From IMG/VR virus record IMGVR_UViG_3300032050_000805, positions 1-24,068 of that record: DNA of 24,068 bases; one strand, given 5' to 3'. Made by a program: the position numbers and the translations under genes. The notes under the pieces were generated by a model. It did no database searches. It had not been told where the DNA came from and saw only the letters and a program-made list of their open reading frames with translations. Within the stretch, counting starts at the first letter, position 1. Each line of letters begins with the position of its first letter. Positions 3,322-8,821 of the stretch are shown here, one piece after another. This DNA comes from a virus.

Positions 3322-3771
3322 TTAGATTGTAGGCATGAGTCCTTCGTCCGCGAAGGACCTGTAATCGTTCTCCGTTAGGATGATGTGGTCGAGTACTCGA
3401 ATATCAAGGTAGCTTAGGGCGTACATTAGCTTTTTGGTCAGACCCCTGTCTACCTCAGACTCTTTGACGTTTCCGCTTGGATGGTTGTGTACCAAGATTA
3501 CGGCCGAGCAAAGGGAGTCCACTGCTAATTTACAAATGATTCGTGGGTCTACGACCGTTGCGGAGATTCCTCCCTGCGATATTTTAGCGTATTCGATGGT
3601 CCTGTTCGCCTGATTCATCATGATGATGAAAAAGGATTCATACAAGGTCAGGTCTTCGTGGTAGAATTGCCTGGCATAGGATTGAGCAATGTGCGAGGAT
3701 GTGATTTCGACCTGCTCAAAGGTAGATTCCTCGGCTACCGAGGTAATCTTGCGATGGGATGCGTACTTCAT
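3322..3771 (-). CDS. Free-standing RadC-like JAB/MPN domain protein
   Basis: The 149-residue protein carries the JAMM zinc motif H-x-H-x7-S-x2-D, seen as H95-N-H97 PSGNVKE S105 EV D108, with a candidate conserved glutamate at E45 (TLYESFFI). The VLVHNHPSG core is diagnostic of the RadC-like JAB family (PF04002). Host RadC is usually over 200 residues with an N-terminal helix-hairpin-helix region. That region is absent here, as in the short versions on Bacteroidota mobile elements and phages. The zinc-site residues look intact. The biochemical role of RadC-like proteins is unsettled (DNA repair and anti-restriction have both been proposed). The ATG at 3771-3769 has a partial leader (3774-3783). 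Two tiny membrane-peptide genes lie immediately upstream. Confidence 0.88.
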   Translation of the reverse strand: MKYASHRKITSVAEESTFEQVEITSSHIAQSYARQFYHEDLTLYESFFIIMMNQANRTIEYAKISQGGISATVVDPRIICKLAVDSLCSAVILVHNHPSGNVKESEVDRGLTKKLMYALSYLDIRVLDHIILTENDYRSFADEGLMPTI

Positions 3772-5105: not shown

Positions 5106-5108
5106 GGT

Positions 5109-5128
5109 ATAAGGTATAAAAGGGTTAA
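5109..5128 (-). repeat. Start-associated element, divergent copy
   Basis: The coding strand reads TTAACCCTTTTATACCTTAT, three bases before the ATG of the 304-aa gene. The second AACCC is altered to ATACC, but length, flanks and distance to the start are kept. Confidence 0.65.
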
Positions 5129-5152
5129 ATTCGGGCTCATTCCCGAACAACA

Positions 5153-5160
5153 CAAAAGTA
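5153..5160 (-). promoter_or_regulatory. Candidate Bacteroidetes -7 box, leftward promoter
   Basis: On the minus strand the sequence reads TACTTTTG, matching the Bacteroidetes -7 consensus TAnnTTTG. It would start transcription about 5145-5150 and give a leader of roughly 40 bases before the ATG at 5105. A well-spaced -33 TTTG was not found, so this is moderate evidence. GGACA half-sites at 5206-5254 lie just upstream. Confidence 0.45.
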
Positions 5161-5202
5161 CAAAACGGCCTTCAAAGTTGTATCGTTTGCAGTGTCTTAT
5201 TA

Positions 5203-5254
5203 TTAGGACAAATGGTGTATTATTTTTAGGACACATTGTCCATTTTATTGGACA
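5203..5254. promoter_or_regulatory. Cluster of GGACA half-sites (candidate operator)
   Basis: GGACA occurs at 5206-5210, 5229-5233 and 5250-5254, and the complement TGTCC at 5237-5241, inside about 50 bases. The repeats are 21-23 bases apart (two helical turns). They form dyads GGACA-CAT-TGTCC (5229-5241) and TGTCCA-TTTTAT-TGGACA (5237-5254). The position, 45-100 bases upstream of the leftward candidate promoter, suits a regulator-binding region. The same TGTCCA/TGGACA pair recurs in the hairpin at 5743-5774. Confidence 0.5.
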
Positions 5255-5288
5255 CAATTAATTTTTAACCTAACGCCTCCCTTTGTAT

Positions 5289-5596
5289 AGTGTTATAACA
5301 CAAGATACATTTCGTCCCTAATTTTTCCCACAAAGAAAAAACAAGATAGGCTTTGCAATATGTTACAACATCAAATACATTTTCCCTTCATTCAATGTTA
5401 CCAACACAATATCCATCATTTTTGTATTTAGTGTTACCAACACTGAATACATTACTTGCAACATGTTTTGTTTGTTTTGTGTTACCGACACAATACGAAC
5501 AAAATAGACCTACCTATTCATCCTGTGTTACCATAACAACAGATACACTAACCAATTGTTGTACAATGTGTTATATAACACAATGTAAACAGGTAA
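5289..5596. repeat. Iteron-like array, seven GTGTTACC-type repeats
   Basis: Seven related repeats begin at 5289, 5360, 5395, 5430, 5478, 5524 and 5567. The consensus is RTGTTACCAACACAATACAT. Within each, GTGTT/AACAC forms a short dyad: exact GTGTTATAACAC at 5290-5301, GTGTTACCAACAC at 5431-5443 and GTGTTATATAACAC at 5568-5581. Starts are 35 to 70 bases apart. The region is non-coding and precedes a RepL-like gene, so iterons of a replication origin or repressor operators are the best readings. Confidence 0.65.
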
Positions 5597-5712
5597 TGGA
5601 TTGTTTACGGCCAGAACAGACGGGGGGGAGGTACTTTCGGGACGACCGGTCAGCACGGACGGATGGGGGGGTATGCCAAAATTTACGCCTATCCCTTTTT
5701 TCGGATTACCAC
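5597..5712. other. Non-coding spacer with two G7 tracts
   Basis: This stretch lies between the iterons and the hairpin array. It has two runs of seven G (5622-5628 and 5665-5671, 43 bases apart) in similar contexts (GACGGGGGGG and GGATGGGGGGG) and a small inverted repeat GTAAAC/GTTTAC (5585-5590 with 5603-5608). No credible gene is seen. Confidence 0.4.
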
Positions 5713-6158
5713 CGTCAGCTCCAGGCTGACGTAGCTGATACGATGTCCAGTAAATTAGCATAAAAACTGGACATTCAGGGTCGGATTAGCTTACAGTGTC
5801 AGTGACACTGCAACCAAACCTGTCACATTTTCAGCACTAATTCGGGATAATTCCGACCTAATGTGCCTTAAAAGGCACAAATGAGGGTCATTTTGGGTCG
5901 TAGGAGGGACATTAAGTGGTTACATGTGGTAACCAGTTGTACGATTTGGTCGTACAGGTGGGGGCATTAGGGGTTGCATCCCTACCGGGACACATCCCCA
6001 AAATGGGGGGATGATCCTATTGGCTACGCTTTGTAGTCAACTGGGTTTTACTACTTCATTTAGGGTCCTATTCTTCTATATACAAGACACTTTTTTGGGG
6101 TGTTTCAAAATAGTGCCTCTACGCTATTGAAAACAGCGTTTTTTAGGGGGTCTAAAAA
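5713..6158. repeat. Tandem array of short hairpins
   Basis: The following inverted repeats are visible: 5713-5731 (7-bp stem, 5-nt loop), 5743-5774 (9 bp, ATGTCCAGT/ACTGGACAT, 14-nt loop), 5794-5810 (CAGTGTCA/TGACACTG), 5862-5879 (TGTGCCTT/AAGGCACA), 5917-5935 (7+5), 5938-5956 (7+5), 5993-6013 (CATCCCC/GGGGATG), 6021-6039 (7+5 with one wobble), 6109-6128 (7+6 with one wobble) and 6140-6158 (7+5). Stem sequences differ but geometry recurs. No gene is present. It may be a single-strand origin, a packaging or resolution site, or a structured RNA. Confidence 0.6.
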
Positions 6159-6165
6159 GGGGTGT

Positions 6166-6205
6166 GTGGTGAATTTCTACCACTTTTGTGGTGAATTTCT
6201 ACCAC
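6166..6205. promoter_or_regulatory. Twin 18-bp dyads before the replication gene
   Basis: GTGGTGAATTTCTACCAC occurs exactly at 6166-6183 and 6188-6205, 22 bases apart (about two helical turns). Each is a dyad with GTGGT/ACCAC arms. They lie 43 bases before the initiator ATG and immediately upstream of its candidate promoter, the position of an autoregulatory operator or initiator-binding site. Confidence 0.7.
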
Positions 6206-6208
6206 ATT

Positions 6209-6243
6209 TTTGGAACCCAAGTGGGTCATTTGGGTTATCTTTG
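6209..6243 (+). promoter_or_regulatory. Candidate Bacteroidetes promoter for the replication gene
   Basis: TATCTTTG at 6236-6243 matches the -7 consensus TAnnTTTG, with a TTTG at 6209-6212 as a possible -33 element. The 23-base gap is slightly longer than usual. A start a few bases past 6243 would fall at or beside the ATG at 6248, predicting a leaderless or nearly leaderless mRNA. Confidence 0.5.
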
Positions 6244-6247
6244 TAGC

Positions 6248-6691
6248 ATGGCTAAATACGTACGGAAGCGTTCTCTGTTGGATGAGGAGACTGGGGAGAA
6301 GTTCATCTCTGATGAGCACGTAAGGGTTCATAGCGGGTCCACTTGGGACCGCGGTAGGTTCGTCAAGCTGTTCTTACCCGCTATAGACGTTTTAATGCGT
6401 TTTAAGCCCTCCGAGTTGCAGTTGGCTATGCACGTACTCCAGCGTCTTAAAAGTGGCTCCAGGGTCGTCGCATTGAGTTTTACGAGCTATCAGGACTTCT
6501 GCCAGGTACAGCTCGGGAAGACGGCCGATAGGTCGGCCTACCACAAGGCTGTGAAGGCATTGGTTCGGGAGGGGTTGTTGGTTCGTTCGGGGAATGAGTG
6601 GTTGGTGAACCATCGTTTGGTCTTTGTGGGGGATCGGGGGAAGTACTTATTTGGGGAAAAGTTGGGTGATTCGGAACTTGGGCGTAGTTGA
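6248..6691 (+). CDS. RepL-like winged-helix replication initiator
   Basis: The 147-residue protein starts MAKYVRKRSLLDEETGEKF. The LLDEETGE opening, a following FVKLFLPAIDVLMRFKPSEL segment (38-57) and a C-terminal winged-helix-like region (about 74-125, with KAVKALVREGLLVRSGNEW) match my memory of the RepL plasmid replication family (PF05732). That family initiates replication by binding the origin near its own gene. The ATG at 6248 is preferred over the in-frame 6188, which would read through the twin dyads and promoter. The neighbouring iterons, dyads and hairpins support an origin function. It could instead be a winged-helix regulator; the family assignment was not tested by search. Confidence 0.65.
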   Translation: MAKYVRKRSLLDEETGEKFISDEHVRVHSGSTWDRGRFVKLFLPAIDVLMRFKPSELQLAMHVLQRLKSGSRVVALSFTSYQDFCQVQLGKTADRSAYHKAVKALVREGLLVRSGNEWLVNHRLVFVGDRGKYLFGEKLGDSELGRS

Positions 6692-7334: not shown

Positions 7335-8045
7335 ATGGCAAGTGCAATTCGCTTTCAAGAAGTAATTAATAACAACGGCACCGCTCTCACGGGTAATACG
7401 CTGAGAGTTACGGCTATATCTACCGATGACTTTAAGTGGGCCTACTCCGGGGGTGGTGACAACCGATACGTAGAGTTCTACGACGCCCAGATTGGGGCAG
7501 ATCGTGTGGCTACCATTACTACCGGGTCTTATGCGTCATTGGTGAACTCAACGGGAACATTAACGCAGGTTACAAGCACCGTAAGCGGTGTTGGCAGGCA
7601 AGACGCCCCTGTTACGGGCGTTTCAACAGCAACCGGGGTGTTTATCATTAACTTGGAAAACATTGCTGTAGCTTACTTGACGGCTACCGGTTCATCTAAT
7701 GTTCAGTATATCGTAAATGGAAAGATGTATGAGTTTGCCATTAACAGGACTCCAAACCAGCTTCAAACCTCTGCGACACTAGGTAACGATGTAAGATTTA
7801 TGTCTGCTCCATTTGCATTACGATTTATTGGGAATAACCGTGTACTTAACGCTTCGGCCACAGGGTCTGCTGGCTGTATCATTGGTTTTAAGAATCTTAA
7901 ATCAGCAGGGACCATTGCGGACGACCGCCGGTTTATTGACGCTGGTGTTACGGGAGTTGTTTCGGAGATCTATTTGGATACGCCTGACAACTTGGTCTTG
8001 GCATCTAATACGGCCTTGTCAAGCATTATCACATCCGGATTCTAA
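7335..8045 (+). CDS. Beta-rich protein, probable virion component (236 aa)
   Basis: The 236-residue product is rich in Thr, Ser, Gly, Ala and Val with alternating hydrophobic residues (for example LRVTAISTDDFKWAY and VFIINLENIAVAYLTATG). It has few charges, no signal peptide and no membrane segment, a composition typical of phage decoration, fibre or baseplate proteins. The leader is A-rich (AACTAACAAAACT before the ATG), as expected for strong translation in Bacteroidota. It lies just upstream of a second beta-rich gene and the terminase genes, an unusual place for a tail component, so a capsid-decoration or head-fibre role is a reasonable guess. No homologue is recognised. Confidence 0.6.
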   Translation: MASAIRFQEVINNNGTALTGNTLRVTAISTDDFKWAYSGGGDNRYVEFYDAQIGADRVATITTGSYASLVNSTGTLTQVTSTVSGVGRQDAPVTGVSTATGVFIINLENIAVAYLTATGSSNVQYIVNGKMYEFAINRTPNQLQTSATLGNDVRFMSAPFALRFIGNNRVLNASATGSAGCIIGFKNLKSAGTIADDRRFIDAGVTGVVSEIYLDTPDNLVLASNTALSSIITSGF

Positions 8046-8059
8046 ATCATTAACCAGGC

Positions 8060-8821
8060 ATGAGTCAACTATTTAACTTCTCCTTCCAGACATTGGCTGG
8101 TGCGCCAGACTCTCCAGGCGCCATTAACAAGAACCAGGTAGTCTATGCTTACACGCAGAACGCAAAGACCTTGTTGGTGCTAACCAATGGCGACTCACGT
8201 ATTGCTGGTAGCGCCTTAGCAGATGTTAAGTCCACATTTGGGCTGACATCGATTGGAACGCCAACAAGGGCCAATGGACAAGTCATTTCTTTGGGGGAGG
8301 TTTTGGTTAACAACGACTATGTCACACAAGTCTTTGATGACACGGCGTCACGTAGAGTGGAGATGAATCAGCCAGCTAGTGCTCCAGTGGTGTTTACCAC
8401 GCCAGTTACGCTGACTGGAGTTGTAGCCAACTCCTTTGCTGGGGAAAAGGGTTACAAGGAGTGGATTGGGTACGTCAATGTTGACAGCACCAACGCGCCA
8501 ACAGGAACTACGCTTTATAATACGATGGGCGTTGCCCCTACTATTGCAATCGTAACTGGAGGGACGATAAACGCCACTCCTGCGTCTTCATATTGGAAAA
8601 TGGGTTTTCCAGGCGTCGTCACTTCAGGCAATATATCGACAAGCATAATAGTAGAAATTGCAGCAGGGGCTCAGAGTGGCCAAAACAGTGGAACGATTCC
8701 GAGGGTCAATTTGGGGACAGCTGAAGAAATTTCGAGTATTGTAATATCAACATGGTCAGCTAGCTTAACAACTTTTGCAGTTGCTAACAAGTTTTTAGTT
8801 TCCATCAAGTTCTTTGGCTAG
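8060..8821 (+). CDS. Beta-rich protein, probable virion component (253 aa)
   Basis: The 253-residue product resembles its upstream neighbour in size and Thr/Gly/Ser/Val-rich composition (for example FTTPVTLTGVVANSFAGEKG and IAIVTGGTINATPASSYW). No family motif is recognised and I could not establish that the two genes are paralogues. The gap to the upstream gene is 14 bases, and it is followed by a 9-bp hairpin (8822-8844) directly after its stop. A structural role (head fibre, decoration or receptor-binding) is inferred from composition and location next to the packaging genes. Confidence 0.6.
   Translation: MSQLFNFSFQTLAGAPDSPGAINKNQVVYAYTQNAKTLLVLTNGDSRIAGSALADVKSTFGLTSIGTPTRANGQVISLGEVLVNNDYVTQVFDDTASRRVEMNQPASAPVVFTTPVTLTGVVANSFAGEKGYKEWIGYVNVDSTNAPTGTTLYNTMGVAPTIAIVTGGTINATPASSYWKMGFPGVVTSGNISTSIIVEIAAGAQSGQNSGTIPRVNLGTAEEISSIVISTWSASLTTFAVANKFLVSIKFFG

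Follow-up and report, generated by a model that had tools for sequence, protein, structure and literature searches.

The window, that is, the whole stretch of 24,068 nucleotides that was analysed, is a source record consisting of a 24-kb virus fragment. Its terminase and portal proteins matched the PHROGs terminase and portal families, and the terminase also matched Crassvirales and Flavobacterium phages at 22-26% identity. No DNA similarity to the window was found among described phages, bacterial genomes scanned with the terminase yielded no host-linked copies, and ARAGORN detected no tRNA gene in the window. The leftward genes are divided from a rightward unit, which carries virion genes and reaches the end of the window, by a gap of 1.1 kb (about 5106-6247). 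Within this gap, between the two divergent transcription units, sits a 450-base non-coding stretch of this uncultured distant relative of Crassvirales which is packed with hairpins and is called the array below. The longest relative, G001 (71 kb), has units which diverge from the gap and which, with the contig ends joined, would meet again at about 18 kb; its leftward unit encodes a DnaB-type helicase, a primase-helicase, a primosomal/initiation-like protein, an Erf/Rad52-like annealing protein and a sigma-factor region-4 protein. The leftward unit of the window encodes a RadC-like JAB domain protein (3322-3771, - strand). In the rightward unit, the two adjacent ORFs at 7335-8821, between the conserved 6950 gene and terL, are highly variable among the phages, even where the terminases are >94% identical. 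From left to right the gap holds palindromes, the CAAAATTTACGCCTAT unit, the hairpin array, two 22-bp repeats and the TATNTTTG box, as listed here together with g6248.

5290-5582, no strand: about seven TGTTA-N-TAACA-type palindromes, probable regulator binding sites
5677-5692, no strand: CAAAATTTACGCCTAT unit, which may be an iteron or a promoter element; some relatives have two to three similar units
5701-5743, + strand: P1, imperfect outer stem (5701-5708 with 5736-5743) enclosing H1; repeat search and covariation
5713-5731, + strand: H1, inner 7-bp hairpin CGTCAGC-TCCAG-GCTGACG; repeat search; stem nearly invariant
5743-5774, + strand: H2, 9-bp stem with 14-nt loop, only in the window and L032; repeat search and alignment
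5794-5810, + strand: H3, 7-bp stem with 3-nt loop; the L042 stem differs and partly corresponds
5821-5831, + strand: TGTCACATTTT, conserved, mostly unpaired in this phage; alignments A6 and A8
5842-5856, + strand: H4, TCGGGA-TAA-TTCCGA, one pair being G-T, G-C or A-T depending on the relative
5862-5879, + strand: H5, TGTGCCT-TAAA-AGGCACA, basal T-A changed to C-G in L042
5914-5938, + strand: H6, stem around the 7-bp core 5917-5935, TGGTTAC-ATGTG-GTAACCA
5938-5956, + strand: H7, TGTACGA-TTTGG-TCGTACA, 7-bp stem and 5-nt loop; stems of L031 and of L032/L033 unrelated, paired
5968-6013, + strand: H8 (5968-5984) and H9 (5993-6013), G-rich stems
6020-6040, + strand: H10, 8-bp stem with one G-T pair and 5-nt loop; core 6021-6039, TGGCTAC-GCTTT-GTAGTCA
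6101-6145, + strand: conserved 3' block, GTGCC...ACGCTAT..AAAACAGCGTTTTTT, partly common to all three groups of relatives; blast and alignments
6140-6158, + strand: H11, TTTTTAG-GGGGT-CTAAAAA
6165-6208, no strand: pair of 22-bp palindromes in direct repeat (TGTGGTGAATTTCTACCAC), probable regulator binding sites outside the array proper
6236-6243, + strand: TATCTTTG, the conserved TATNTTTG box, a Bacteroidota-type -7 box, 12 bp before the g6248 ATG
6248-6691, + strand: g6248, which opens the rightward unit and encodes a 147-aa protein with a predicted winged helix

The hairpin content of the gap was compared with that of shuffled DNA. Perfect stems of 7 bp or more enclosing a 5-nt loop were counted four times in 5680-6240, whereas 0.04 were expected from 500 dinucleotide shuffles (maximum 1). 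When loops of 3-12 nt were allowed, the count was eight against 0.40 expected (shuffle maximum 5). The array has the highest hairpin density anywhere in the whole 24-kb window, and its hairpins are present beyond chance; a density no greater than in shuffled sequence, the outcome by which the preliminary description would have dropped its proposal, is the opposite of what these counts gave. That description had spoken of about ten inverted repeats, which agrees with the 11-12 counted here, and had named five hairpins, all of which lie at the positions it gave. Besides the four perfect 7-bp/5-nt hairpins a fifth has one G·T pair, all lying within 5690-6165. Folding against dinucleotide-shuffled controls, which it had suggested as a check, was far better than shuffled on both strands (z about -6 to -9). 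The z value for 5680-6250 was -7.0 on the + strand and -8.8 on the - strand; it was about 0 for the coding DNA immediately to the right of the array and about -1.4 for the palindrome array on its left.

The region was followed in 28 related viral contigs, found via capsid, terminase and neighbouring proteins, about 13 of which span it; the genomes of these relatives are not proven complete. Three groups were distinguished, namely group 1 (the window, L031, L032, L033, L034 and L042), group 2 (L035-L041) and group 3 (L049 and L050). Hairpin arrays lie at the same place in groups 1 and 3, with + strand z values of -3.6 to -6.8 (window included). Group 2 is without most of the array (z about -1.7) and has mainly the 3' block in common, which is the most conserved part of the region among the relatives. 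H2 and H3 are gained or lost as units, and an extra hairpin is present in group 3. The search with a pattern from the 3' block and with a CM of H4-H5 recovered only phages already known, plus a weak match in L050 on the - strand. The equal geometry of 7-bp stem and 5-nt loop stressed by the preliminary description holds as an over-representation in this phage; it is not conserved, the matching sites in relatives being 7/3, 8/3, 6/3 and 10/5. On this comparison the equal geometry is a local tendency and only the pairing is conserved. The stretch 5678-5938 is 91% identical in DNA to L032:2405-2666, yet the g6248 proteins of the two phages are only 63% identical; L031, with an identical g6248, is without part of the same stretch. 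As judged from these two comparisons, the 5' half of the array is recombined among the phages.

The neighbouring elements were also traced in the relatives. Palindromes like those at 5290-5582 occur in all three groups, with a spacing of roughly 150 bp in group 2. The repeats at 6165-6208 have a counterpart in all three groups, where the repeat sequence differs and the layout of two dyads at 21-22 bp is kept. The -7 box stands at an identical distance from g6248 in groups 1 and 2 and at -35 in group 3. No convincing family match was obtained for g6248, and Foldseek gave weak matches only, mostly to winged-helix proteins and none below E 0.001. Its identity as a RepL initiator was rejected, as the g6248 homologues of four relatives left Pfam RepL PF05732 unmatched at E up to 10.

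Base-pair covariation was analysed in alignment A5, a composite of six helices (P1 outer and inner, H4, H5, H6 and H7) from the six group 1 sequences, which are related and partly recombinant. The helices were aligned by hand around the centres of the hairpins, which biases the counts toward structure, and shuffled and slid controls are given for this reason. In A5, 90.4% of pair cells are paired and eight pairs are changed on both sides (five in H7, two in the P1 outer stem and one in H5). Since the inner stem, H1, hardly varies, it carries little information on covariation. The covariation score was 0.123 against 0.079 +/- 0.013 for shuffled alignments and was reached in none of 500 shuffles. 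When the partners were slid by 1-3 columns, pairing fell to 27-43%. Three of eight pairs of the P1 outer stem are broken in L031 and again in L032 in the A5 register, and most H5 pairs are broken in L034.

The clearest case is H7. The window and L031 have identical g6248 proteins and flanks that are 93% identical, yet L031 has an unrelated paired stem at this site. Pairing and place are therefore kept there, and the sequence is not. In L032 and L033 the H7 site reads GTCAGC-TNNAG-GCTGAC, a hairpin otherwise found at H1, where GTCAGC-TNNAR-GCTGAC is present in all group 1 phages whose sequence reaches the site. The pattern at H7 suggests that hairpins were exchanged as units rather than compensated step by step. 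Pairing has been kept with compensatory change across the array, and the covariation together with the replacement of H7 supports the earlier proposal of selection on structure and not on the base contacts of one protein. Pairing and not sequence is what is selected, the folded shape being under selection probably as RNA.

The strand and the nature of the molecule were then considered. On the + strand G-T pairs exceed A-C pairs by 14 to 4 cells in 7 and 4 columns, the cells of related sequences being not independent, and this excess points weakly to the + strand. Several pair changes go via G-U, which also speaks for RNA, as do the presence or absence of hairpins in the manner of peripheral RNA helices and the conservation of the 3' part. 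The stems of the array are almost pure Watson-Crick, the fold z is no better on + than on -, and the RNAalifold energy is the same for both strands. No conserved promoter into the array and no clear terminator were found; the array precedes the sole rightward promoter that is conserved. A long-range closing helix proposed by RNAalifold was supported in L034 and L042 and not in the window, L031 or L032, and is therefore not claimed for this phage. The sign of the GC skew changes to the left of the array, at about 6 kb in G002 and 12-13 kb in G001, and a skew origin at the array itself was rejected on this distance. No rolling-circle initiator and no Rep or relaxase was recognised among the early G001 proteins scanned, which are part of the gene set.

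The reading that fits best, to which a probability of about 0.5 is given, is that 5700-6160 encodes a non-coding RNA which is large (about 450 nt), structured and most likely rightward (+). Of the options raised in the preliminary description, the structured phage RNA is the one that accounts best for the data; a packaging or resolution site found no positive evidence, and a single-strand origin keeps some probability, although the skew change lies elsewhere and no rolling-circle initiator was recognised among the proteins tested. The RNA would be transcribed rightward from a putative phage promoter, with the conserved 3' block as its core and P1 as its conserved 5' hairpin. The peripheral hairpins would serve as structural arms, which may be lost, gained or swapped between phages provided that pairing is kept. 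Production near the switch to late genes and a role late in infection would be a guess from the place between two units. We infer RNA as the working molecule, together with its strand, its ends and any function. The GTCAGC-type copies at H1 and H7 might further indicate a scaffold of RNA (or ssDNA) with interchangeable arm cassettes, copied between positions and swapped between phages, where only arm pairing and place are selected; this extension is considered rather unlikely.

A tentative but serious alternative is a DNA element at an origin or a site of primer synthesis. Its hairpins would form while the DNA is single-stranded or supercoiled, and any suitably sized hairpin would serve. The nearly pure Watson-Crick stems and the equal fold energies of the strands suit this explanation, as do the position between divergent units and the neighbouring iteron-like palindrome array, direct repeats and winged-helix gene. 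A single-strand origin has moreover been reported to tolerate replacement of its sequence with the structure kept (PMC4595007). Against it, the GC skew flips 6-13 kb leftward of the array, neither a rolling-circle initiator nor the RepL family was recognised among the proteins tested, and the excess of G-T over A-C on the + strand speaks weakly for RNA.

The same asymmetry is a weak argument against duplex operators, in which every hairpin would be a 19-bp palindromic site for a dimeric regulator. Dyads of 19 bp are a usual operator size, and the neighbouring repeats at 6165-6208 and 5290-5582 are operator-like; however, the array hairpins have no common sequence, unlike the separate 6165-6208 repeats, and H7 is unrelated in the window and L031 despite the identical neighbouring protein and closely similar flanks. 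Operators are considered very improbable. An improbable explanation, rated above operators, is that the rightward late unit has the array as a long, structured RNA for leader or antitermination function, which would act on RNA polymerase like HK022 put. The array does lie immediately upstream of the rightward unit, which continues to the window end, and putRNA is also built from RNA hairpins (PMC9378689). However, the array is followed by the conserved promoter box, 12 bp ahead of the g6248 start codon, and therefore at least part of the mRNA would be without the array, although a phage promoter may also lie upstream of the array; putRNA is also far smaller, with about 73 nt and two stem-loops (PMC9378689).

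Phages have few large structured RNAs, and little is understood of what these do. If the array acts as RNA, it would add one in relatives of crAss-like phages, and the strong natural variation of its arms would make it easy to test structure against function. As a DNA element, the array would instead mark a site of replication or control in the phage group, for which we know of no mapped site of such kind. Another non-coding region was observed in G001, the nearest long relative, at 61921-62590 (L107:7921-8590), having 670 nt, a folding energy of -244 kcal/mol, a z of -5.8 and UUCG-type loops, with no Rfam match. It is present in G005 at 81% identity, three group 2 genomes have a core of it (about 130 nt), and its place in G001 is near the point at which the GC skew flips sign. 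In the RNAalifold structure of G001 and G005, nine pairs are changed on both sides and none is broken on the + strand (seven and none on the - strand), a count which is only a lead because the structure was derived from those two sequences. This region is a candidate second large structured RNA.

The array was compared with known systems. Rfam gave no match at the gathering threshold for the window and none at E up to 5 for the region, and the relatives were also without match. The N4 virion RNA polymerase uses promoters that are small DNA hairpins, several of which lie in an early control region and which have a common sequence and 3-nt loops; the array likewise has several small hairpins, but the shared sequence and 3-nt loops belong to N4. 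In the nearest relative, the giant virion protein had no RNA-polymerase family match in PHROGs, and a crAss-type RNA polymerase in this protein was rejected since the DxDGD motif is absent. HK022 putRNA would resemble the array, read as RNA, in having RNA hairpins in a phage control region, and is placed downstream of its promoter (PMC9378689), whereas the array has about 11 hairpins and lies upstream of the known promoter. In single-strand origins such as ICEBs1 sso1 and pBAA1 sso, which are described in rolling-circle elements, structure outweighs sequence (PMC4595007). The array is like them in its several stem-loops, intergenic place and structure over sequence, and unlike them in that no rolling-circle initiator was recognised and no skew switch occurs at the site.

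GOLLD and ROOL share with the array that they are phage-encoded, several hundred nt long and densely paired with covariation support, and GOLLD has a conserved 3' part and a variable 5' part (PMC12286853), the conserved 3' end being the feature in common. The array differs from GOLLD, ROOL and OLE in matching no Rfam covariance model; GOLLD and ROOL are often near tRNA islands, whereas the window is without tRNA genes, and the array has about 450 nt whereas many GOLLD members exceed 800. The Rfam models and the tRNA neighbourhood place the array outside these families, but GOLLD and ROOL come closest to it in kind through their phage context, their dense pairing and, for GOLLD, the conserved 3' end.
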